Below are positions 2,543-63,075 of a DNA stretch of 64,000 nucleotides, in pieces. The DNA is from a virus. The notes beneath the pieces were generated by a model. It worked only from the letters and a program-made list of their open reading frames with translations, was not told the DNA's origin and made no database searches. Both the position numbers and the translations under genes were made by a program. Where the stretch lies: positions 33,730-97,729 of IMG/VR virus record IMGVR_UViG_3300009182_000002; one strand, 5' to 3'. Positions within the stretch are counted from its first letter, which is position 1, and each line of letters opens with the position of its first letter.

Positions 2543-3735
2543 TGAACGACGACACCATGCCCAACACAAGCGCCTGCTCCTGCGGTTGCCACGGTCCTGC
2601 CGCTGGCAACGAGCCTGCCAACGACCAGCCGGGTGGCTCTGGCAACGAGCCGGGTCAGCCCCAGCCCGGCAACGAGCCGGGTCGGCCCGGCAACGGCGAC
2701 CAGCCCGGCGACCAGCCCGGCGAGGGCGAGGGTCAGGGCGAGGGCGACCAGCCCGGTGAGTCCGACGGCGGCGGCGCGAACGGCGGCGCTGGCTCCGACG
2801 GCGAGACCGGGCTGGACGGCGGCGAGGCCAACGGTGCTGGCACCGGGGTTACCAACGCCCCCGACATTGCCAAGGCCTTGCAAGACGCTGCTAGCAAGGC
2901 TCTCGACAACATCACCAACGACGTCGATATCGCTGGCGAGGCCAGCAGCGCTGTCAACGCTGTTGTCAAGGGCGGCGGTCACGTCCAGATCCTGCGCGAC
3001 TCCCGCTTCGACACCTTCGCCCCCAGCGACGAGGCTCGCCTCGCTGAGCGCCGCGCGGTGCGGGAGTTCAACACCCTCCGCGCAGACGCTGAGGAGGGCT
3101 GGGACCGCGCCCGTCCGCAGGGTCGGCTGAACGTCGGTCGCTACATCTCTAGCAACGGGGACCTTGACGTGGCCTTCGACCAGTGGCGTGACCGCAAGGG
3201 TGACGCCTCCGACCTTGAGGTTGTGCTACTGCTGGACGACTCAATGTCCATGGCTTCCTACCGCGTGGTCAGCGCGGAGGCCATGTGGGTACTCAAGCGT
3301 GGCCTTGACGCCATCGGTGCCAACACCACGGTGGTCATGTTCCACTCCGAGTCCCGCGTCCTGTACAAGCCGACCGACAAGGCTGAGGCGGGTCGCCTCC
3401 GCTGCTCAACTGAGAGCGGCGGCACTGACCCCAGCGAGGGCATCGCTCAGGCGGCGCGCATCTTCGCCGGGAGCCGCAAGGGTCAGAAGGTGCTGATCAC
3501 CATCACCGATGGCGACTACTGGGGTGAGTCTGTCCCTGCCAACTGCGACTACAACATTGACGACATTGTCAAGGCCATGACCAACAGCGGCGTCGTCACT
3601 GCTCAGGTCCTGTTCAACCACGCGAGCGAGCAGACTCACGGGCACGCGATCAGCACTCAGGTCTCGCAGGTTGAGGAGATCGCGTCCTTTGCCAAGGAAC
3701 TTGTCAAGGCTGCTATCAAGTCTCGCCAGCGCTAG
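2542..3735 (+). CDS. VWA-domain protein
   Basis: A 397-aa protein starting at ATG 2542, overlapping the previous stop by one base. Residues 1-20 include CSCGC. Residues about 25-115 are a Gly/Pro/Glu/Gln-rich linker of repeated GNEPG and DQPG units. The C-terminal half is a von Willebrand factor A domain with an intact MIDAS: DDSMS (D232, S234, S236), the threonine in GGTDPSEG, and the aspartate in TITDGDYW. VWA domains bind ligands through a metal ion and are the usual partner of MoxR ATPases (compare RavA-ViaA). It probably acts with the ATPase and the HExxH protein. A strong terminator follows. Confidence 0.88.
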   Translation: MNDDTMPNTSACSCGCHGPAAGNEPANDQPGGSGNEPGQPQPGNEPGRPGNGDQPGDQPGEGEGQGEGDQPGESDGGGANGGAGSDGETGLDGGEANGAGTGVTNAPDIAKALQDAASKALDNITNDVDIAGEASSAVNAVVKGGGHVQILRDSRFDTFAPSDEARLAERRAVREFNTLRADAEEGWDRARPQGRLNVGRYISSNGDLDVAFDQWRDRKGDASDLEVVLLLDDSMSMASYRVVSAEAMWVLKRGLDAIGANTTVVMFHSESRVLYKPTDKAEAGRLRCSTESGGTDPSEGIAQAARIFAGSRKGQKVLITITDGDYWGESVPANCDYNIDDIVKAMTNSGVVTAQVLFNHASEQTHGHAISTQVSQVEEIASFAKELVKAAIKSRQR

Positions 3736-3744
3736 CAACGGGCT

Positions 3745-3777
3745 AACCCAGCAGGCCCCAAAGGGGCCTGCTGGGTT
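3745..3777 (+). terminator. Terminator after VWA gene
   Basis: A perfect 15-bp stem (3745-3759 with 3763-3777) closes on an AAA loop ten bases after the VWA stop codon. It is followed by gcttccc rather than a run of T. It ends the three-gene module and isolates it from the small-gene array. Confidence 0.85.
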
Positions 3778-3805
3778 GCTTCCCAACACAAGCAATTACC
3801 AACCC

Positions 3806-3849
3806 CAGCGCGACTAGCAGCCACCCCGGTGCAAGGCCGGGGCGCGCAC
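3806..3849 (+). repeat. 44-bp direct repeat, copy 1
   Basis: Identical over 44 bases to 4866-4909. It contains a hairpin pairing 3824-3829 (ccccgg) with 3837-3842 (ccgggg) around a 7-nt loop. It lies in the untranslated stretch directly ahead of the 63-aa gene at 3888, so it is probably a leader or regulatory element. Confidence 0.9.
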
Positions 3850-3887
3850 TGGTGCGACGAGCGCACCTAGCAACGAGAGGAATGCCA

Positions 3888-51476: not shown

Positions 51477-53128
51477 GGCGTCGTCCCTGTTCCAGTGCCT
51501 GTGCCTGTGCCTGTTCCAGTACCTGTTCCGGTGTTTGATCCGGCGGGTGTACCGGGAACAAGAATTCCCGACTTAAGGTCTCCGTTCCCTGTTCCGGCAT
51601 CGCTGAAGAACTTGTTCGAGTCCTCCACACCGCTTCCCCATGTAAGGGGGCGCTGGATGGAAAGGTTGACCTGCGAGTACTTCGGCACCATGTTTTCAGT
51701 GAAGAGCAAGTGCTGAATCTCAACGCTGGTGATTCGACCAACGAACGTGATGTTGGGGCCCAACCAAACACGTACTGGGATGGCGTTCAAGAAACCGTAG
51801 TCAGCAGTGCGAGTGCTCTTATCGCGACCGTCCATTGCCAGAGGATCTTCCGAAGCACCTCCGAGGTACTTGCGGTGGTATGAGGGCTGACCATCTCCGT
51901 TGACTGATTTGTATAGGTACTCGATGTCTGCCAGCGTTCCGTAGGCCTGAAGAGCGTCTACTTTCTGCGCGATGGTTGCGTTCTCGGCGGAAGGTACGAA
52001 CTTTGGAGGCTGTTTTCCTCGACCTCCAAAGACCGAACCACTCACGTACGTAGGGTCTGAATCCGGAACGCCCTTCTCACCGGCTAGCGTCTTGTCTGAT
52101 TGCCAATTGGTGACTTCGATCAACTGGTCTCGTGTCATGGTCAGTTCGATGATCCGGTTTACGAACACCGTTAGACCGACACCAGCCCACCCGCCCATCA
52201 GCGGCAAATTCAGCGGCCTTGACCCCATGACGTTCTGTGGGTCGATGGACTCGGTCATCTGAGTGTTCATGGTCCACGACGACGGGTTGTAGTGGAACCT
52301 GAACCCGTACATGTGCGAGAAGGTCGGGTACGCCGGGTTGCCCTCGAACGTGTGAAGCATGCCATTGCGCCAAGTCGCACCGATGGTCTGCTGGATAGTA
52401 CGGAGTTCACGACCGTCGTACTGTGTGACTGTTCGAGTTCGTGGGCTTCCAAAAGCAATCTTGTTAAGACGAAGATTGGTCTCGATACCTGCCTTGGTAT
52501 CGATGAAAGTTTTGGTGACGCTGGTGGTGCTTCCTGCCCCCGGAGGATTCTGGAGGTTGCCCCCACCACCGGTAGCCGTGGCATCTTCCACGTAGTACTC
52601 GTCGTCCTCGTACTTCTCCATAACGTTTACGATGCTCTCTTGCGTCAGATCGCCCTTGCTAAGAATGGTGTAGACCGCCTTGTTGGTTCGGTAGTGCTGG
52701 TACACGGTGCCAACTAGACCACCGGGTGGCATCCTCGCTGGGTCACCGTTCTTGGCGGCAGGAACCGGAGTGCTACCTGCTCGACCTCCGCTGTTACCTA
52801 TGGGAGGCGCAGAGCCCGTGATCGAGTCCAGTTTGGACGCCATGTCGATAACTTGATCAAGGGTGAACGTCTTCTTTACCGTGTAAGCGCCAGACCACTG
52901 CACCTGAGTGGCGTCCAGCCCGATGTACTTCTTGGATGTCGTATCGGAAGATTTGTAGTCGGGGTTCTTGATGACCAACTGCAAGTAGCAGTTGCCATCA
53001 AGAGCGCTTGATTTGGGGAAGGTGTAGGTGACCTCGTACTGAACCTCGGAGAGGTTCTTGATCGTGACCTTGACATCTTTCTTAGTCAACGTGGGGGCAG
53101 TGATCGGGGGTAGAGAATTGTTAGCCAT
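51473..53128 (-). CDS. Baseplate/hub-associated protein (551 aa)
   Basis: ATG start. No family clearly recognised. N-terminal strands (residues 15-100), a Gly/Pro linker (105-145), then a globular part with TFSHMYGFRFHYNPSSWTM and GWAGVGLTVFVNR...MTRDQ, and finally a run of alternating Gly and Thr (last 20 residues) coded by an unstable simple repeat (51485-51540). Position between the tape-measure genes and gpX marks it as a tail component. Confidence 0.72.
   Translation of the reverse strand: MANNSLPPITAPTLTKKDVKVTIKNLSEVQYEVTYTFPKSSALDGNCYLQLVIKNPDYKSSDTTSKKYIGLDATQVQWSGAYTVKKTFTLDQVIDMASKLDSITGSAPPIGNSGGRAGSTPVPAAKNGDPARMPPGGLVGTVYQHYRTNKAVYTILSKGDLTQESIVNVMEKYEDDEYYVEDATATGGGGNLQNPPGAGSTTSVTKTFIDTKAGIETNLRLNKIAFGSPRTRTVTQYDGRELRTIQQTIGATWRNGMLHTFEGNPAYPTFSHMYGFRFHYNPSSWTMNTQMTESIDPQNVMGSRPLNLPLMGGWAGVGLTVFVNRIIELTMTRDQLIEVTNWQSDKTLAGEKGVPDSDPTYVSGSVFGGRGKQPPKFVPSAENATIAQKVDALQAYGTLADIEYLYKSVNGDGQPSYHRKYLGGASEDPLAMDGRDKSTRTADYGFLNAIPVRVWLGPNITFVGRITSVEIQHLLFTENMVPKYSQVNLSIQRPLTWGSGVEDSNKFFSDAGTGNGDLKSGILVPGTPAGSNTGTGTGTGTGTGTGTGTTP
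51485..51540. repeat. Gly-Thr-coding microsatellite
   Basis: Imperfect tandem repeats of a six-base unit (cctgtt/cctgtg type) at the 3' end of the 551-aa gene. Unit loss or gain keeps the frame and would change only the length of a flexible tail. Confidence 0.7.
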
Positions 53129-55772
53129 AAGCCACCGTCAACTCCTTAGATTCAAGTTCCGTCTTGAGCACCTGCGCGAACCTCACTGCCTGCTTGCTGC
53201 TTGCTTCGCCGATTGCGACGTGGACTGTCATGTCCGTTTGGTGGTGGCCCCATTCATGGCGAACTTCCTCAGCCACCTCCGCCGGTAGCACCATCTCATT
53301 CTCGTGGATCTTGGCGATCTGGTCGTCCTCAATCCGCCACGCACCCTTGGAATACTGGTTGTACTTCGAGAACCACTCAGCGTCGTTGTTAACTGTGGTG
53401 TTGTAATTCTTGGTTCCGGACTGCCAACTGTCGCCCCAACCAGAGAAGTCGTGCGTAAATCCTGTCGGGGTAATTCCGCTGATACCCCAGTCAGTCCACT
53501 TGGTGAAGTTGTTAGACAACTTCTTCATAAACTGCCAGTTCTTCTCTGGGTCTTTCATCGTGTACATGTCCGCAGACGCGCCAAACATTGCACGAATACC
53601 ATCAAGGTGAACATTGTTTACTTGGTAAAGCCCAACGTCATAATGGGGTGCTCCGGAATCTTTCGGGTCAAGCACACGACCACTGGGGTTGTAAACTTCG
53701 CTCGGATCTCCCCCGGTCTCTCTCATGCCGATTGTCCAGAGGATTTTGGCAACGTCCTCAGAGACGTTGTGGGCCTTGATGAAGTCTTTGAGCCATTTGG
53801 GACCCTTGCCCGATGGACCGGAGTACGTTCCACTCCCATCTCCGGTGGCGGTGGTTCCCGAAGACGTTGAGTTGACTCCTGCGGGCGAGGGCGCGGGGGG
53901 CTTGTCGTCGTTCCTTACGTGGCCAAGGCTGGCCCATGGCGCGCTGTTCGTAATAACCTGAAGTATCGATTGCGCCTTAGCGGAAATGCCACTGAGGCCA
54001 ACGCTTACGCTGACCCCAAGGAACGCTGGAGAAGATGTGCCGAGGGTTGAGGTGCCGGTGCTGCCAGCGTTGTTGTTGGCTGGTTTTGTTCCCGGAGTTT
54101 GGCTAGTCGTCCCCGTACTTCCCGTGGTTCCTCCTGTGGTTGCCGCTCCAGTGCTGTCTCCGGGAACAGGAGTGTTAGGCACGCCCTGAGACCCACCATC
54201 CCAGTACCGGATGCTCTTCGTGTAGTGAGGCCCGTACCAGCCTGTGAACGCGGTGTTCTGCTCAACGGTGTCCTCGCGCGAGTTTGCCGCGTGGATAATG
54301 GTGTTGCCCCCAGCAAAGATGGCAATGTGGTGGGCACCGTTTCGGTACAGGATGAAGTCTCCCGGCTGCTCCTGTCCGTGCGGGATCTGCTTCGGCTTGG
54401 TGTCCGCTTCGTAGTCTCCCGTGTAGTCCGGTGCGTTAATGCCAAATTGCTTGAGCACCCACCAAGTGAAGGTCGCGCAATCCCAGCCGTTTTGGGGACT
54501 GGCGGACTGCTGTCCACCGGGAAGTGTGGATGAATCAATGTAGGGAACCTTGCCGACGTACTTCCTCGCAAGGCTGACGATCTCTCCACCAGTGACGTAC
54601 TTCTGCGCCCCGATAGCATCGAAGACATCGACAGCGTCGATGTAGCCACCGTTGGCCTTGAGCAAAGCGCCTACAGATCCTACGACCGCGCTTCCCGGTC
54701 CCGTGGACGTGAACCCTTCGTACGCGCTGAGCACGGTTGCGAGACCCTGAAGGGCGTCGCTGAGTATTCCCGCATTCTCGGCCAGCGATGTGAATGCGTC
54801 GTTCATCCCAGCCCCGAGATTCAACCCGGCGGAGTAACCATTCACCAATGAGTTCCGGAAAGCGTTTCCTTTGCGGCTCTCGCTGCTGGAGTAGCGCAGA
54901 CCTGCCGCACGAACGTTCAGGTTGCCGTTGTCGAACCCGAGCGACTTCATGGTCTTGGCGTCGTTCGCTGCGTAGCGTCCCTTGTTAGCGGTTCGCTTGA
55001 AGATTGCGTCCTTGATAAGCATCTGCATTCCGGGGTCTGGGATGTACGACTGGAGCATCAGGTCCATCGCCCCGCCCGGACGAAGTCCCATCTGGATCTG
55101 ATCAGCCGACGGGTTCGCCCCATACACGGTCTTAACAAGGTGGTCTGCGATAGACGCGACGTCCTTCGGGTTGCCCTTCGAGTCAAAGGACTCGAAGCCA
55201 AGCATCCGGAGTCGGTTAGTCATCACTGGGTTAGTGCTCTGCGAGCCGAGGATTCCGGAAACCTGCTCATTGTCAAGACCCGTTGTTAGGGACATCGCCC
55301 CAACTTGACCAAGCATGTTCTGGCCCGCTGCCCCGTATGGGTTGAAGCCCATGTTCGACAGGATGGCTGCGGATCGCTGTGCCGAGCCGACACTGGACTG
55401 GTAGTCGCCGAGGATGTTCTGCGACATTCGGGACAGCCGGTCAAAGTCGCCTGCACCCATGTGACGCCCGGTTGCCAGCGATGCTTGGAACAGAGCCTGC
55501 TGCATATCAACGGCATCAGCCGCCGCTGGCATCATGCCGAGGATTCCACCAGCAGCCGCAGTGCCGATACGGGCAGCCACAGAGCCCGCCGTCATTCCTG
55601 ATCCGCCGCTAGCGAGGATTGGCGGAGGGAACATCGGCATCGGAGCGGGTAGGCCGCCTCCGTCGCTCTTACTCACCTTGCTTTGAAGGTTGGACTTGAT
55701 CTGCGTCAGATCATTGATGATCTCCGCAAAAGCACCGTTGAACACGGTGTCCTTGGGGTGCTGCTCCGTCAT
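53121..55772 (-). CDS. Tape-measure-type protein with NlpC/P60 and lysozyme-like domains (883 aa)
   Basis: Residues about 70-350 are close to the upstream 959-aa protein (shared ILGMMP...VDMQQALFQAS, QIQMGLRPGGA.DLMLQSYIPDPGMQ). Residues 395-525 are an NlpC/P60 peptidase: NGWDCATFTWWVLK with C432, HHIAIFAGG with H481/H482, IIHAA with H494. Residues 660-810 are a lysozyme-like transglycosylase domain with E685 in MRETGG and VGLYQVNN. The C-terminus carries GAWRIEDDQIAKIHENEM. It probably helps the tail cross the cell wall. ATG start, 1-base overlap with the upstream gene. Confidence 0.85.
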   Translation of the reverse strand: MTEQHPKDTVFNGAFAEIINDLTQIKSNLQSKVSKSDGGGLPAPMPMFPPPILASGGSGMTAGSVAARIGTAAAGGILGMMPAAADAVDMQQALFQASLATGRHMGAGDFDRLSRMSQNILGDYQSSVGSAQRSAAILSNMGFNPYGAAGQNMLGQVGAMSLTTGLDNEQVSGILGSQSTNPVMTNRLRMLGFESFDSKGNPKDVASIADHLVKTVYGANPSADQIQMGLRPGGAMDLMLQSYIPDPGMQMLIKDAIFKRTANKGRYAANDAKTMKSLGFDNGNLNVRAAGLRYSSSESRKGNAFRNSLVNGYSAGLNLGAGMNDAFTSLAENAGILSDALQGLATVLSAYEGFTSTGPGSAVVGSVGALLKANGGYIDAVDVFDAIGAQKYVTGGEIVSLARKYVGKVPYIDSSTLPGGQQSASPQNGWDCATFTWWVLKQFGINAPDYTGDYEADTKPKQIPHGQEQPGDFILYRNGAHHIAIFAGGNTIIHAANSREDTVEQNTAFTGWYGPHYTKSIRYWDGGSQGVPNTPVPGDSTGAATTGGTTGSTGTTSQTPGTKPANNNAGSTGTSTLGTSSPAFLGVSVSVGLSGISAKAQSILQVITNSAPWASLGHVRNDDKPPAPSPAGVNSTSSGTTATGDGSGTYSGPSGKGPKWLKDFIKAHNVSEDVAKILWTIGMRETGGDPSEVYNPSGRVLDPKDSGAPHYDVGLYQVNNVHLDGIRAMFGASADMYTMKDPEKNWQFMKKLSNNFTKWTDWGISGITPTGFTHDFSGWGDSWQSGTKNYNTTVNNDAEWFSKYNQYSKGAWRIEDDQIAKIHENEMVLPAEVAEEVRHEWGHHQTDMTVHVAIGEASSKQAVRFAQVLKTELESKELTVAYG

Positions 55773-58651
55773 CAGAGATGCCCGCCTCCGATGCGGTCGA
55801 GCATGCTGTCCTCATCAAGCATCTGCTTGACCTTGCGGGCCACTCGCCGAGCATCGTCGTCCGTAGCCTTAGCAACAGACAGGTTGATAACAACGTTGTT
55901 CCCGATCTTGCTAGGCGACGAAGTCTGGCCGGCTCGAGACTCGCGCATCACGGTTCGCACTGCCTCGGCGGCAGGTGCCGGAAGGATCATCTCGTTCTGG
56001 TGGATGTTCGCGATCTGATCCTTGTCGATGCGCCACGCACCCTTTGAGAAACCTTGGTGCCAGTCGGGGTGCGCGTCGTAGTCTGCCAGTCCTTTTGAGT
56101 ACTCGGAAGAGGTGCCTGAGTAGGCGTTCCAATCATTCCAACCGTTGTATTTGGGGTCACTTTTGGTCAAGAAGCCGATGTGCGCGTTGTACGCGGGATC
56201 AAAGATCTTGGCCGGGGTGTAGTCAACGGTTTCACCGCCTGCGGTCTTGTTGGTCACATCATTCATTTGGAACAGGCCAAAATCCGTAGAACCGGCCCAT
56301 TCTCCGCTGGTGTTCTTGTGGGTGATGTTTGGATTTCCTCCCGACTCTCCAAGCACCACTCCGTAGGCGGTTCTCAGGTCTCCTCCTGAGAACCCGGTGT
56401 CGTGAAGAAGTTTCACCAAGTTGGCTCCGGACAATGTCCCAGAACCGTAGTTTCCTGATGCAACTCCGGGAGTGGCAGTCGAGTTGGCAGCACCAACACT
56501 TTGCGACGACGTTCCTTGATTTACTCCAAGCGATGCATAGCCCGGGTCTACTCCGATGGCGCTGAGGATGCTTTGGGCTTTGCCGCTTGTTCCACTCAAC
56601 CCGCTTCCGACGTTCACGCCAGTGAACTGCGGTGCAATCCCAGTGATGATGGGAGTTGACGAGGTGTTGGCGCTAGCAACAGTGGTGTTGGATGTCGATG
56701 CGCTGGACGCACTGCCCGTGTCGTTGGGTCCATTGATTCCGGGGGCGATGAAGACGTGCATCTCGTCCACGGCCTTGCCGTAGTCGCCGCCCCAACCCAA
56801 CTTGCCGCTGAACCCAGCCAAGATCTTGTGAGCCTCTGCCTGTTGCTCAGAAGACATGTAGTGCTTGCCAATGCCAGTGCTCTCGTCAGGGGCCTGCAAG
56901 ACGTCGTAACGGATATCGACAGCGTAACCAGCGTGGTCTGAAATCTTGTCCTTGGTCATGCGACCCGGACGGTACTCCCACGAGTCGAGAGGTCCCTTGG
57001 TCAAGGTGAGCGGACCAGCGCCGTTGTTACCAAGGAGTGGGTCTTCCTGCCATTGCTTAAGGAAGTCTTGGAAGATCGGACCAGCCCAGTCGGCAACCGT
57101 GATGCTGCGACCACCGGCAACGCTGAACGTTTTGAGGTGCGGATCGCCGTCTTGCAAGGCGGGGTGACCAGAGATCGTTAGACCTCCGTCAGCGAACCGC
57201 TTTGCGTTCAGGCTCTTGAAGAGATCCACGCCGTACTTCTGCACAGCGTCCGCCTGCACGACGAACTCTCCGTCGCTGAGTAGCGCGGGAATCTTGTCGC
57301 CCTTAGGACCACCGGGACCCCGAATCGTGCCGCCGCCAGCGTGACCAACCATCTTGAGCAGGCTGGTGATCGCGCTCCCGCCGGGAACCATGCTGAGCAT
57401 CCCGGCAATAGCCTGACCGGGACCAGTGCCCAAGAAGCCAGAGCCGAACCCGCTGACCGTTGCCAAGCCCTGAAGCAAATCGCTGATGATGCCGACGTTC
57501 GTAGCAAGTTCTGTGAACGCATCGTTCAGGCTCGATGCCGCGTCAAGACCGGCGCTGAATCCATTGACAGAAGAGTTACGGAAGGCATTGCTCTTACGAC
57601 TCTCACTGCTGGCGTAATTCATACCAGCGCCTCGCGGGTTGAGGCGGTCGTTGGTAAGCCCGAGTTTCCCGGCAGTCGTAGCATCGTTAGCCGTGTACTG
57701 GCCGTTGTTCAAGGCTTGCTTGAACATGTTGTCCTTGACCAACTGCTGCATCCCGGGATCGGGGATGTAGGACTGGAGCATCAGGTCAAGAGCGCCGCCG
57801 GGCCGAAGACCCATTTGGATCTGCTCTGGTTTGGGACTGTTTCCGTATACGACCTTGACAATGTGCTTAGCAATGGACGCAACGTCCTTTGGGTTGCCAG
57901 CAGAGTCAAACGTCTCGAAACCGATCATCCGCATGCGGTTGGTCATCACGGAGTTCGTGCTCTGGGTCGCGAGCGTTCCGGAGACCTGCTCGTTGGACAT
58001 GCCGGTCGTCAGCGAGATCGCGCCGACCTGACCGAGCATCTTCTGACCGGCAGCGCCGTAGGGATTGAACCCGAACTGCGAGACGATAGCGGCGGAACGC
58101 TGAGCGGAACCAATAGACGTCTGCATGTTGCCGAAGTTCGACTGGGTCATCCTCGACAACCTGTCGAAGTCACCGGCACCCATGTGGCGACCAGTGGCCA
58201 TAGACGCTTGGAAGAGCGCCTGCTGCATGTCAACGCCGTTGGCGGTGTCCGGCATCATGCCGAGAATGCCACCGCCGACAGCCGTGATACCACGAAGCGC
58301 GGCGGATGCGGGGGTGATGCTGCCGAGGCCGAGGCCTCCACCACCACCACCCTGCACGGGAGACGGGGGCAAGCCCATGGGCGGAGGAAGACCGCCGACA
58401 GGAGACCCGTTCGGAGGAGGCGGACCACCGCCCGTACCACCCGGGTTGTTGAAGGGGCTTGGTGCGATGGGCGTGCTGATTGCCCCAGTGCCCACAGGCT
58501 GACCGTTAGCCTGACCGGTACCGCCAGATCCGGTGGCGTTCTTGATGTTGGAAGACCACGTCTTAGCAGCGGTTCCGCTGTTGTTGAGCAGGTCGTTGAT
58601 GTCGTGAAGCAGTTGTTTGATCTGCTTCAGATCATCAATGTGAGTGCTCAT
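55772..58651 (-). CDS. Tape-measure protein with M15-type peptidase and lysozyme-like domains (959 aa)
   Basis: Coiled coil at 1-30, Gly/Pro linker to 115, then the domain shared with the 883-aa paralogue (about 125-400). Residues 435-490 carry a tape-measure motif (GGTIRGPGGPKGDKIPALLS, GEFVVQADAV). Residues 500-640 have the M15 metallopeptidase layout: SDHAGYAVDIRYD (H573, D579) and DEMHVF (H632). Residues 745-850 form a lysozyme-like domain with E769 in LGESGG and FGLFQMND. The C-terminal segment GAWRIDKDQIANIHQNEM is shared with the paralogue. ATG start in a four-base overlap with the frameshift extension. Confidence 0.87.
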   Translation of the reverse strand: MSTHIDDLKQIKQLLHDINDLLNNSGTAAKTWSSNIKNATGSGGTGQANGQPVGTGAISTPIAPSPFNNPGGTGGGPPPPNGSPVGGLPPPMGLPPSPVQGGGGGGLGLGSITPASAALRGITAVGGGILGMMPDTANGVDMQQALFQASMATGRHMGAGDFDRLSRMTQSNFGNMQTSIGSAQRSAAIVSQFGFNPYGAAGQKMLGQVGAISLTTGMSNEQVSGTLATQSTNSVMTNRMRMIGFETFDSAGNPKDVASIAKHIVKVVYGNSPKPEQIQMGLRPGGALDLMLQSYIPDPGMQQLVKDNMFKQALNNGQYTANDATTAGKLGLTNDRLNPRGAGMNYASSESRKSNAFRNSSVNGFSAGLDAASSLNDAFTELATNVGIISDLLQGLATVSGFGSGFLGTGPGQAIAGMLSMVPGGSAITSLLKMVGHAGGGTIRGPGGPKGDKIPALLSDGEFVVQADAVQKYGVDLFKSLNAKRFADGGLTISGHPALQDGDPHLKTFSVAGGRSITVADWAGPIFQDFLKQWQEDPLLGNNGAGPLTLTKGPLDSWEYRPGRMTKDKISDHAGYAVDIRYDVLQAPDESTGIGKHYMSSEQQAEAHKILAGFSGKLGWGGDYGKAVDEMHVFIAPGINGPNDTGSASSASTSNTTVASANTSSTPIITGIAPQFTGVNVGSGLSGTSGKAQSILSAIGVDPGYASLGVNQGTSSQSVGAANSTATPGVASGNYGSGTLSGANLVKLLHDTGFSGGDLRTAYGVVLGESGGNPNITHKNTSGEWAGSTDFGLFQMNDVTNKTAGGETVDYTPAKIFDPAYNAHIGFLTKSDPKYNGWNDWNAYSGTSSEYSKGLADYDAHPDWHQGFSKGAWRIDKDQIANIHQNEMILPAPAAEAVRTVMRESRAGQTSSPSKIGNNVVINLSVAKATDDDARRVARKVKQMLDEDSMLDRIGGGHL

Positions 58652-58809
58652 GCGGACCTTCCTCTACGACTACGTCTAGCAACGGCTCTTTGCAGCCACT
58701 CGTACCTCTCCCTAGGGGAGAGGGCCCTGATATCGCTCAGGGTCCATCCGGGGTATGCGACAGAGATTGCTTCGTAGGAATCGAGTAGGTTCGCGTATTC
58801 GGTTAAATC
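58648..58809 (-). CDS. Putative +1 frameshift extension of tail assembly chaperone (53 aa)
   Basis: Directly after the chaperone stop, the +1 frame encodes 53 residues (DLTEYANLLDSY...GWTLSDIRALSPRERYEWL) ending in an ATGA overlap with the 959-aa gene. No ATG, GTG or TTG occurs in this frame between its preceding stop (58837-58839) and the end, so it cannot start by itself. The frames overlap over 12 codons that contain TTG-TTT-CGC and CTC-TGA. The content resembles the small DUF6760-type partner seen beside contractile-tail chaperones (recalled). Frameshifting is therefore likely. A sequencing error is the alternative. Confidence 0.62.
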   Translation of the reverse strand, partial: DLTEYANLLDSYEAISVAYPGWTLSDIRALSPRERYEWLQRAVARRSRRGRSA

Positions 58810-59617
58810 AGAGGCGAAACAAGGCTGCCATCGCGAACGGCAGGCTCATCTCCTCTTCGCAGTGCTGACACTTCTTGGTGATCTCGCCGAGGCGGGGTCC
58901 AGTAACCCGCTTGGCAATCTCTTCTACGATTTTCTCTCGGTCTCGGATGCTCAACTTCCGAACCTGTCCTGCGCCCATAACGGGAAGCCCATTGATCTCC
59001 GTCACGCACGACTCAAGCAACGCCGTGTTGAGTTCCGAGTTGGTCTTATCAACGGCATCGAGGATCTTCCGCTGGGTAGCGCCGGTAGGAAGAGTGACCT
59101 CGACCGGGCCGATCTTGCAGTTGACCTCGAAGTTCCTATCGCCCGGGTTCTCCATCACACGAACCGGAACGTCCTCAACGAGGTCGATGGTCAGGTCCTG
59201 AGACTCGTTGCAGGAAGGGCAGGTGACCGAGACGTCCACCGTGGGGCCGAAGGTTGCGCGACGGATTCCGAGCAAGAGGTCGTCTCGGTCTCCAGACAGG
59301 AGCATGTCCAGCATCTGACCGTTCGGCTTGTTATCTCCGAGGCGGACTACTCCGCGCTGAAGAATTGCCGACAGGAACTTTCCGGTTCCCTGAGTCTTGG
59401 AGATGTACTCCTCGTCCTCACCGTTGAGTTCCCGGACCTCGCACTCCCTAACAACCTCGCCCTTGTCGTTGACGAAACCGCCGGACAGTGTGACGAAGGT
59501 GTCGGGGAGTTCAGTAGCGACGATGCTGGGGATTTCGGTGTCGTCCTCAGCAAGGGCCTTAGCAACCATCTCGTTGATAAGGTCCGGGCTGTCCACTGCG
59601 TTCACGGTGTTATTCAC
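58808..59617 (-). CDS. Tail assembly chaperone/baseplate hub assembly-like protein (269 aa)
   Basis: ATG start. Residues 135-145 (TCPSCNESQDL) and 248-255 (CQHCEEE) form a zinc site as in the T4 gp26-type baseplate assembly proteins of contractile systems. The central segment has VEVTLPTGATQRKI and KTNSELNTALLESCV. Position just before the tape-measure genes is that of the tail assembly chaperone. Its frame shift into the extension at 58648 would give a product of about 322 residues. Confidence 0.8.
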   Translation of the reverse strand: MNNTVNAVDSPDLINEMVAKALAEDDTEIPSIVATELPDTFVTLSGGFVNDKGEVVRECEVRELNGEDEEYISKTQGTGKFLSAILQRGVVRLGDNKPNGQMLDMLLSGDRDDLLLGIRRATFGPTVDVSVTCPSCNESQDLTIDLVEDVPVRVMENPGDRNFEVNCKIGPVEVTLPTGATQRKILDAVDKTNSELNTALLESCVTEINGLPVMGAGQVRKLSIRDREKIVEEIAKRVTGPRLGEITKKCQHCEEEMSLPFAMAALFRL

Positions 59618-59658: not shown

Positions 59659-60246
59659 TTAAGAGGGGAAAGTAGTGGAGGCGTTACCGGTTGCGTAGTT
59701 ATCAGCCCACGTCATCTCGAATCCCTCGTGGACAACAGACATCTGCTCCACCATGAGGGCGTTGTCGCCAGCGTTCAGGTCTGAGTAGGCCACCGAGGTG
59801 ATCCATGCGTTGTAAACCTTGAACCGCAGCGCCACGTTGTTGGTGTCGTTGTGACCCGGGTGCTTCAACACCGAGATGTCGATGGTGGTCCGGAACTGAC
59901 CCTTGGACGTGTTGGTACCGGCGGAGATGTCGAACAGACGCTTCATCCATAGCCAGTTCTGGTTAGTACCAAGAACGACACCGCGAGTGAAAGTCAAAGG
60001 TGAGAAACTTGTCTGACCCGGAATCTGATGTACATTAGTGTTATAGCCTCCCTCGCGGTAAGGGATAGACTCCGTTGTAACAGTCAAACCACTGATCTGA
60101 GTGAAACCAATGCTGGTATCCAACTTGACCGCTGCGGCGTTGCTGCCCGGGTCAGAGATGTTGGTGAACTTGGCGAGGAACCGGAAATTCCGTACGGGGT
60201 CAGTCTCCAGACTTGACCGAAGATTGACGTAATTAGGCGTGGCCAC
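59659..60246 (-). CDS. Tail tube protein (195 aa)
   Basis: ATG start. DPVRNFRFLAKF near the N-terminus, SIGFTQISGLTVTTESIPYREGG and PGQTSFSPLTFTRGVVLG match the gp19-like tail tube family. It lies directly after the sheath gene, the order expected in contractile tails. Confidence 0.93.
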   Translation of the reverse strand: MATPNYVNLRSSLETDPVRNFRFLAKFTNISDPGSNAAAVKLDTSIGFTQISGLTVTTESIPYREGGYNTNVHQIPGQTSFSPLTFTRGVVLGTNQNWLWMKRLFDISAGTNTSKGQFRTTIDISVLKHPGHNDTNNVALRFKVYNAWITSVAYSDLNAGDNALMVEQMSVVHEGFEMTWADNYATGNASTTFPS

Positions 60247-60267: not shown

Positions 60268-63075
60268 TTACTGGACGTTGATAGAGGTAGCACCGTCGAA
60301 CTGACCGATGCGGATGATGACAAACTCTGCGGGAGTCTGAAGAGCAACGCCGACCTCGATATTCAACTCACCGTCAGCGAGCGACGTGACGGTGTTGTTG
60401 GCTGCGTCGCACTTGACGAAGTAGGCCTCGTCCTGCGTCGCTCCCTTCAAACCACCCTGCTGCCACAACTCACGGAGATAGGTGCCGCAGATATTGCGGA
60501 CCTGCTCCCACAGACGGTCATCGTTGGGCTCGAAGACTGCGAAGGCCGTGAGATCAGCCAGACGCTTCTTTGCCTGAAGCATCGTGCGCCGGGTCGAGAC
60601 GTACTTCATGCGACGGTCGGCACCGACGTTGCGGGCACCCATGACGCAGAAGCCAGCGCCGGGAACCTGACGGATCACGTTCACCGGAGTGAGCGCGGTG
60701 TTCAGCGCGTCGAGATCCGACGAGGAGAACTGGCGCTCCATGGAGATCACGTTGTTAAGGCTCGCGCCGAGACCGGCGGGGGCCTTGAACACTCCACGAG
60801 ATGCATCCGTCTGGAGGATCAGGCCAACAACCGATCCGCCCGGCGGAACCTTGCGCGTGGCGGGGGTACCGGATGAGACCGGGTCAGCGATGTTGACCCA
60901 CGGGTAGTAGATCGCCGCGTTGTTCGACTTCGGCGTGATATCAGCCGCGAATGACTGAGCCGAGGTGGAGTCAAGCAACGCCGGGGTGTCAACCACGACG
61001 AACGAGTCGCCACGGCTGTCAGCGACTGCGATGACGGCGGCGTAGACCGCGCGGCAGTCCGCAGACGAAAGAGCGGCAGCGTCAGGGAAGTTGTAGATCA
61101 GGTTGTTGCCGATGGTGTCAAAGTCATCGGCAGCGTTGATCAGGTCGGTCTTGGTGATGCCACTTCCCTCAAGGGTTCCCGAGGTGTTCACCGTGGTGCG
61201 GACACCAGTGACAGAACCGCTCAGCCCGTTCTGCAAAGCGAGGGTGTAGGTGGCGGTAGCAGCCGAGAGTGCAGCGAAGGAACTCGGGCTCGTCAGCGTC
61301 GTGCCGAACTGCATGGCAGGTGCGAGGGTGACGGTGGCCACCGAACCGACCGTGGCATCGATGATCGCGCTGGCGTTAAGCGTGACCGCGTACGACGAGA
61401 CGGTACCGGCAGCGCTAGCCTGAGCAACACCGCTGGTGTTGCTGATCGTGAAAGTCGTGCTGGTCGGAACCGTGAGAACCGTGAACGAACCGCTGTTGGC
61501 GGCGTTCGTGGTGCTCGCGACAACGACCTGAGCACCGACGAACAGGTTGTGCGCGGCAGCGGTGGTGTAGGTAACTGTCGGAGTGGAGAAGGCGATGGAC
61601 GAAACGTTCACCGTCGTGGTGGTCGCAGTAGAGACGAACGAGTTCGAGTTCAGGGCCGAGGTACCAGCCGAGCGAACAGCGGTCACAGGCTGGCCAACCC
61701 AGAACTTGCCGATGTCGCCGCTAGCAACCGTGATCGCGTTGCTAGCGCCACCAACCGAACTACCGGTAACCGCAACCGAAGTAGCCGACTGAGTCACAGC
61801 GGTCAGGGTGCGGGCGGTGGTGTCGAAGTTGGCGTCGCTGGTGCCAGCAATCGTGATCTGGTCGCTGACTCGGAAAGCGTGGTTGCTGCTCGTTCCGACC
61901 ACACCACCAGTGGTCAGCGAGATTTTGCAGTTGAGCGAAGACTGGATCACCTTGCTGAACGAGAACGAGGTGCTACCCGAAACACCGGTTACGGTGTAGG
62001 TGCCGTTCAGCGAGGCGCTACCGGGGAGACCGGTGTTTGGAGACGTGATATTGACGCCGGTAACAGTGACCACATCGTTGGCCTGAAGAGCGTGCCCGGA
62101 AGCAGTCAGCGTGGCCACACCAGCGCCAGAGACGATGGCGGAGGTCACGGACACCGAGGACAGGTTCGTCACCGAGTAGGGCTTGGAAAGGCCCAGCGGG
62201 ATCGAGGAGGTGGCGGGAGAGCGGTAGACGCTCTTGCTGCCGGTGGTCGGGGCGACGAAGCCGGATGGGCGGCTGAGCACTACGTACTTGGAAGCAGGGT
62301 TCACTACCGAGATTGCGTAGCGGTCGGATGCCGGGTTCAACGAGATGTCGTTGAACTTCTCCACGAGGTAGCCGTTGGTAACGCCGTTGAAGAAGACCGA
62401 CAGTGAGAAGACCTCGCTGGAAGCCGCGACGTAGGCACCGGTCGGAGTCGTGTCGCCAACGTTGCTAGCGGCAGTCGCGAAGGTGAAAGTGGTCGAGGTG
62501 ACTCCGGTGACCGCAACCTCTCCGTACAGACCGGTGGTGCTGATGCCGCCGACGTTGACAACGTCGCCAGCGCTGAGTCCGTGAGGGATCGTCGTGGTCA
62601 TGGTGGCAACGCCGTTGTCCACGCGGTAGGTGGAGATGTTGGTGCGGGGCGTGGTGTCCTGAACCTGAACGGCGATACCGGAGCCGTTAGGAGAGGCGAT
62701 GGCCCAGTCGCCGGGGCTCGACGCGGTCACCATCAGGATGTCCTGCGGAGTCGCGGTGCCATCGTTGAGGGTGATCATCGCGGACGTGGAGTCCGAGGCG
62801 GCGACGCGGTCTACGTAGCAACCGCGACCACCGTTGCCAAAGAACTGGTAAACGGCGTAAGCAAGCCAGTAGGGGTTGCCGGACGAGTCCTTGAAACCTC
62901 CGAAGAGGCGCGAGAACTCGGTCCACGAGGACACGAAGGTCGGGGTGCTGACCGGGCCGCGCTCCGCGCGCCCGGCGAATGCGCCCACGGAAACGTCAAG
63001 GCCGAGAGCCTGAATCTGCTGCGGGAGCAGGACCTCCTCGACAAAGGTGCCGGGGCGGCGGTAGTTGCTAGCCAT
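60268..63075 (-). CDS. Contractile tail sheath protein, enlarged (935 aa)
   Basis: Residues 1-90 (YRRPGTFVEEVLLPQQI..., GAFAGRAERGPVSTPTFVSSWTEF) are the sheath N-terminus, and residues 650-935 (PWVNIADP..., VPPGGSVVGLILQTD, NVIRQVPGAGFCVMGAR, WEQVRNICGTYLRELW, DG..SINV) the conserved core and C-terminal arm. Between them lie about 450 residues of Ser/Thr/Val-rich beta modules of the HGLSAGDVVNV...GSFTVLTVPTSTTFTI type. Usual sheaths are about 400-650 residues; the inserted decoration accounts for the excess. ATG start. Confidence 0.93.
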   Translation of the reverse strand: MASNYRRPGTFVEEVLLPQQIQALGLDVSVGAFAGRAERGPVSTPTFVSSWTEFSRLFGGFKDSSGNPYWLAYAVYQFFGNGGRGCYVDRVAASDSTSAMITLNDGTATPQDILMVTASSPGDWAIASPNGSGIAVQVQDTTPRTNISTYRVDNGVATMTTTIPHGLSAGDVVNVGGISTTGLYGEVAVTGVTSTTFTFATAASNVGDTTPTGAYVAASSEVFSLSVFFNGVTNGYLVEKFNDISLNPASDRYAISVVNPASKYVVLSRPSGFVAPTTGSKSVYRSPATSSIPLGLSKPYSVTNLSSVSVTSAIVSGAGVATLTASGHALQANDVVTVTGVNITSPNTGLPGSASLNGTYTVTGVSGSTSFSFSKVIQSSLNCKISLTTGGVVGTSSNHAFRVSDQITIAGTSDANFDTTARTLTAVTQSATSVAVTGSSVGGASNAITVASGDIGKFWVGQPVTAVRSAGTSALNSNSFVSTATTTTVNVSSIAFSTPTVTYTTAAAHNLFVGAQVVVASTTNAANSGSFTVLTVPTSTTFTISNTSGVAQASAAGTVSSYAVTLNASAIIDATVGSVATVTLAPAMQFGTTLTSPSSFAALSAATATYTLALQNGLSGSVTGVRTTVNTSGTLEGSGITKTDLINAADDFDTIGNNLIYNFPDAAALSSADCRAVYAAVIAVADSRGDSFVVVDTPALLDSTSAQSFAADITPKSNNAAIYYPWVNIADPVSSGTPATRKVPPGGSVVGLILQTDASRGVFKAPAGLGASLNNVISMERQFSSSDLDALNTALTPVNVIRQVPGAGFCVMGARNVGADRRMKYVSTRRTMLQAKKRLADLTAFAVFEPNDDRLWEQVRNICGTYLRELWQQGGLKGATQDEAYFVKCDAANNTVTSLADGELNIEVGVALQTPAEFVIIRIGQFDGATSINVQ

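Follow-up and report, generated by a model that had tools for sequence, protein, structure and literature searches.

The phage analysed here very probably makes two forms of its gp26-type tail chaperone by a +1 ribosomal frameshift at the codons TTT-CGC, as judged from sequence comparison. The window, which is the whole stretch of 64,000 nucleotides that was analysed, belongs to a virus record of 97.7 kb. Among relatives of the phage, the slippery site is invariant in its UUU-C core, and the +1 frame continues beyond the chaperone stop into a conserved protein extension.

The chaperone locus and its +1 reading frame

Window coordinates refer to the minus strand unless stated otherwise. The zero-frame product is a gp26-type tail/baseplate-hub assembly chaperone of 269 aa (59617..58808, GTG start, TGA stop), with matches to PF12322 T4_baseplate (E 2.4e-10; 40.9 bits, above the curated cut-off of 24.5, profile positions 60-150) and to phrog_150 baseplate hub (E 1.5e-10). 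The gene lies between those of a gp19-like tail tube protein (59659..60246; PF06841, E 5e-28), which is preceded by a contractile tail sheath (60268..63075; phrog_23, E 3e-42; PF17482, E 6e-11), and a tape-measure protein of 959 aa (55772..58651), recognised from the list of open reading frames and PHROG tape-measure matches. The order sheath-tube-chaperone-extension-tape measure is the lambda-type arrangement, with two overlapping open reading frames directly before the tape-measure gene and after the tube gene, as in a G/GT-type pair.

The +1 open frame (58845..58651) begins past a TGA, runs for 12 codons within the chaperone gene and for 53 codons past its stop, and contains no ATG, GTG or TTG. 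Its own stop (TGA, 58650..58648) overlaps the ATG of the tape-measure gene (58651..58649) as ATGA. The overlap of the two frames holds TTG TTT CGC (58822..58814), the putative E-, P- and A-site codons, in which TTT occupies 58819..58817 and the C at 58816 would be the skipped base; the chaperone gene then ends with CTC TGA (58813..58808). TTTC occurs in frame only once in the chaperone gene, at residue 267, which is this site. The open frame is truly +1, and the -1 frame closes one codon beyond the chaperone stop. An earlier note on this DNA had described the 269-aa chaperone ending at 58808, the start-less frame of 53 codons past the stop, the ATGA overlap and the 12-codon overlap holding TTG-TTT-CGC, and all of these were confirmed. 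By itself, the start-less +1 frame is weak evidence, because this GC-rich window contains 504 runs of 64 or more codons without a stop, and 44 of them have no ATG, GTG or TTG either; the weight of the frameshift case rests on conservation in relatives.

The chaperone carries two cysteine pairs, CPSC (residues 133-136; 59210..59221) and CQHC (residues 250-253; 58859..58870), and both cysteines of each pair are invariant in the chaperone alignment. The zinc-bearing chaperone suggested previously is plausible because of these two CXXC pairs, whose cysteines stand as candidate zinc ligands.

Several further features of the window were recorded. A hairpin upstream of the shift site (58843-58825) was returned by a terminator scan and, by eye, is apparently not kept in locus L008. 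Two adjacent tape-measure-like genes (53121-55772 and 55772-58651) share the N-terminal region GGILGMMP..VDMQQALFQAS.ATGRHMGAGDFDRLSRM, with an NlpC/P60 domain in one and SLT-like domains in both, so that the tape measure is apparently duplicated. The tail sheath (60268-63075) is unusually long (935 aa) and probably carries large inserted domains, because its best sheath matches span only about residues 400-925. Positions 17-84 of the plus strand match a type II hammerhead ribozyme (RF02276, 42.1 bits, cut-off 37).

Conservation of the proposed shift site and the extension

Relatives were drawn from cultured Streptomyces phages, including BRock, pSt2308, GiJojo and LuckySocke, and from IMG/VR loci (the best 80 of 364 matches, not a random sample), thereby giving 85 loci of the phage's own clade, with 59 distinct extensions and chaperones that form 23 groups at <70% identity. 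In 85/85 loci, the +1 frame stays open for dozens of codons across the chaperone stop, with L076 cut by the contig end, and the sequence ahead of the stop is Leu-TTT-CGN or Leu-TTT-CAR throughout (85/85). TTT-C[GA] stands two codons ahead of the stop in 55 of the 59 distinct cases and three codons ahead in the other 4; the A-site codon is CGN in 54 and CAR in 5. With UUU in the P site followed by C, and CGC in the A site, the window belongs to the UUU_CGN class.

Codon usage at the site is strongly constrained. The wobble base of the Phe codon is T in all 29 representatives below 80% identity (2.00 bits), whereas several neighbouring wobble positions are nearly random (0.03-0.5 bits), except that the Leu wobble is a purine and is often preceded by C. 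The site TTT is invariant even in genes that mostly encode Phe by TTC, as TTC accounts for 6/6 of the other Phe codons of the chaperone gene in the window and 8/9 in L003. The chance of an invariant TTT is about 10^-6.6 when the 23 representatives below 70% identity are naively treated as independent. The E-site Leu codon is TTR in 19/23 of these representatives vs 6.7 expected (p 3e-8), and the A-site Arg codon is never AGA or AGG, though both are used elsewhere. These constraints act on zero-frame codons, serve no need of either protein, and are those that tRNA-Phe would require for slipping by +1 from UUU to UUC; from them we infer both the shift and its exact site. Apart from the codons in the E and A sites, no stimulator was found. 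Downstream RNA folding was unremarkable (z-scores between -1.6 and +0.8), and the phage uses CGC at 13.8 per 1000 codons, which does not make it rare.

The extension (58815..58651, 55 codons) is homologous in all relatives of this clade, with the consensus ~Y..L..EW..L...Y.GWTL.EI..LS.RER..W, and the combination of a conserved slippery site in the overlap with a conserved downstream frame is that of G/GT-type genes. Among the window, L008 and L009, dN is 0.09-0.13 vs a dS of 0.22-0.71 (dN/dS about 0.1-0.4), and purifying selection acts on the extension in the +1 frame. An AlphaFold2 model of the extension folded alone has a mean pLDDT of 87 and three helices (4-20, 26-30 and 34-53). Comparison of this model with viral models gave nothing significant, and a BRock protein of extension length (60 aa) was placed at rank 12.

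Four alternatives to slippage at UUU were weighed. The extension is unlikely to be a separate small protein that is initiated on its own or through translational coupling where the chaperone ends. The GenBank records of BRock, GiJojo, LuckySocke and Alone3 do list it as an independent late-start gene (that of pSt2308 omits it), and a Saccharothrix locus has a DUF6760 gene with its own ATG after a different small Cys-pair protein. However, ATG, GTG and TTG are lacking in the +1 frame of the window, L008, L009 and L020, possible starts in the other loci are scattered without alignment from -167 to +121 relative to the chaperone stop, and independent starts would leave the invariant TTT-C wobble base and the TTR preference unexplained. 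The annotations of the extension in all five records (L002-L006) are probably wrong.

A shift at the stop codon (CTC TGA, compare CUU UGA of prfB), or a -2 shift, in place of UUU to UUC slippage has an even smaller likelihood. Slippage at the stop could take place in L008 (CTT TGA) and L009 (TTT TGA), but the preceding codon (CTC, TTC, TTT, CTA, CAG, ATA or ATC) and the stop codon itself both vary among relatives, and a CUC to UCU slip pairs poorly; for a -2 shift at TTG TTT, the Phe tRNA would have to read UGU. Slippage at CTC-TGA was rejected because neither the codon nor the stop is kept. A sequencing or assembly error, in which one missing or extra base splits a single gene, could stand for one genome only and is refuted, with a negligible residual probability, by the same +1 layout across 59 distinct sequences, which come from many assemblies and from cultured Streptomyces phages, and across 57 of a second clade. 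Least probable of all is a chance open frame in GC-rich DNA, which the 44 start-less runs would allow and which is refuted by the conserved +1-frame protein sequence with dN/dS <0.5.

The +1 programmed frameshift at TTG-TTT-CGC put forward in the earlier note is therefore strongly supported by the invariant TTT-C, the open +1 frame in every relative, the purifying selection and the lack of a consistent start. Of its accompanying points, TTT-C holds in 85/85 homologues with CGN or CAR in the A site, absence of a start holds in the window, L008, L009 and L020, possible starts elsewhere lie at unrelated positions, and CTC-TGA is no component of the signal.

Predicted products and the wider gp26-type family

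According to the proposed +1 mechanism, most ribosomes would read the chaperone gene to its TGA and release the 269-aa protein. In the others, the P-site tRNA-Phe would slip from UUU to UUC with one base skipped, so that TTTC is translated as a single Phe step, and the +1 frame would then yield a 322-aa fusion (join 59617..58817 + 58815..58648, minus strand) of residues 1-267 and the 55-aa three-helix domain. The predicted junction peptide ends ...NVGILFANSNYK in BRock and ...NVGILFANSDYSVTYSEYEQLVDAYK in GiJojo. The two forms may cover the tape-measure protein at a set ratio, and tail tube subunits may be recruited by the extension, as for lambda gpG/gpGT. This role is suggested by the order of the genes and by a predicted minor product that carries the extension, and the best explanation of the chaperone/fusion pair would be that it is the counterpart of gpG/gpGT.

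The arrangement extends beyond this clade. A second, distant clade, that of Flavobacterium phage immuto with 57 distinct sequences, has an open +1 frame and the junction TTT-[CT]TT (or CTA), with TGG-CCT coming next in nearly all of them. Extensions in the +1 frame were also found in Bacillus SP-15, Listeria LIS04, Streptococcus GXN1, Microcystis Mel-JY01, a Bacillota MAG, and Streptomyces and Saccharothrix loci, and extensions in the -1 frame in Agrobacterium Atu_ph07 (junction run T TTT TTC), LR756511 and an Acidobacteriales MAG. Of nine relatives from bacteria or phages that were tested, seven were confirmed as PF12322 members; the proteins of immuto and Mel-JY01, which were found by sequence search, fall below the model threshold. 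With SP-15 as the seed, the sole match in viral contigs was SP-15 itself. Shifting by +1 appears common in the gp26-type chaperone family, contrary to the previous view that it would be unusual there.

Two loci touch on the family DUF6760 (PF20546). In the Acidobacteriales MAG (L100, ~3694-3850), the -1-frame extension after the PF12322 chaperone matches PF20546 (27.3 bits, cut-off 27), and on account of this match DUF6760 may be a recoded chaperone extension. In Saccharothrix (L194, minus strand, reverse-complement bases ~860-1640), DUF6760 is encoded by a gene of its own, which begins with ATG and directly follows that of a small Cys-pair protein; this arrangement may represent the pair as two genes without a frameshift.

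T4 gp26 and gp51 are hub assembly chaperones (PMC3004832). PF12322 covers the entire gp26 and residues 1-201 of gp51, both across nearly the full profile, and because it matches both, gp51 is a gp26 paralogue with 48 further residues. In an AlphaFold2 model from a close T4 relative, the gp51 tail forms three helices (206-221, 226-231 and 234-248) with a spacing like that of the extension. The motif L-x-x-I-x-x-[LM]-x-P-x-E-R occurs in register in the window extension (26-37) and gp51 (226-237) with a shuffle p of about 2e-4, but an unrelated gp29 stretch scores higher. When the complete fusion is aligned with gp51 by hhalign, the alignment continues in register into the gp51 tail (E 2e-4), whereas tail against tail alone is not significant; the extension HMM gave no significant match to T4 frames, and gp51 gave none to solved structures. 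The gp26 family may ancestrally frameshift, mostly by +1, to make short and extended forms, and T4 may have replaced the frameshift by duplication, with gp26 as the short and gp51 as the extended form. We consider the arguments for this reading evenly balanced, because the helix layout and the fusion alignment speak for it and the tail-only comparison and the gp29 motif score against it. No paper stating the same was found in the literature searched.

Comparison with known frameshift systems

The general kind of event is already known, since a +1 shift at TTT-CGC had previously been put forward in the tail chaperones of HF1-like haloviruses (PMC7230728), and HSTV-2 carries these codons too. 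As far as our searches show, what is new is how deeply the site is conserved in bacterial phages whose chaperones are of gp26 type, the alternation of CGN with CAR, the change to a -1 shift in some lineages and the possible connection with T4. The UUU_CGN +1 signal, which is established in influenza and proposed in other eukaryotic viruses (PMC3498833) and haloviruses (PMC7230728), thereby gains many natural sites in bacterial phages, some with CGN and some with CAR in the A site; it is testable at once because the cultured Streptomyces phages BRock, GiJojo and LuckySocke carry it. The scheme of short and extended chaperones would extend to gp26-type phages, in which current annotation splits or misses the product. 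The T4 reading offers a possible, testable answer to why T4 lacks the frameshift of other long-tailed phages, and to the roles of gp26 and gp51 in hub and tail assembly.

Conservation of the lambda tail assembly chaperones gpG/gpGT extends across the long-tailed phages (Xu et al. 2004, cited in the review PMC5009743); G binds the tape measure and T recruits the tube protein, a scheme general among long-tailed phages 'except T4' (PMC5009743). The present phage is alike in its two overlapping open reading frames before the tape-measure gene and in its short chaperone with a predicted low-level, frameshift-extended form, and unlike lambda, which shifts by -1, it would shift by +1 on UUU-C, with a gp26-type chaperone and a contractile tail. 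T4 gp51 has its extra C-terminal three-helix tail where the extension sits, whereas gp26 and gp51 are separate genes on opposite strands with no frameshift. P2 gpE+E', made by a -1 shift, is likewise a frameshift-made C-terminal extension in a contractile-tailed phage. Its profile (PF06528 Phage_P2_GpE) shows weak similarity to the extension, but the match lies under the curated cut-off (window, 12.3 bits vs 23, E 0.12; best member, E 0.0057).

For tail chaperones of HF1-like haloviruses, TTT-CGC +1 shifting has been proposed (PMC7230728), and these viruses and HSTV-2 (PMC5009743, PMC8211752; site TCC TTT CGC) share with the present phage a predicted +1 frameshift between the tail tube and tape-measure genes. 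They differ in their archaeal host, and the HSTV-2 chaperone (177 aa) lies outside PF12322, to which it gave no match; the frameshift is a prediction there too. Influenza A PA-X uses UCC_UUU_CGU, shown by a junction peptide, with P-site UUU to UUC slippage favoured (Firth et al. 2012, PMC3498833). The likeness to PA-X drawn in the earlier note fits, because that study assigns PA-X to this slippage with CGN preferred in the A site; PA-X and related eukaryotic-virus +1 sites are thus alike in both respects, and unlike the phage sites in their eukaryotic ribosomes, in an E-site UCC vs UUR in the phages, in their unrelated genes, and in that some phage relatives carry CAR in the A site.
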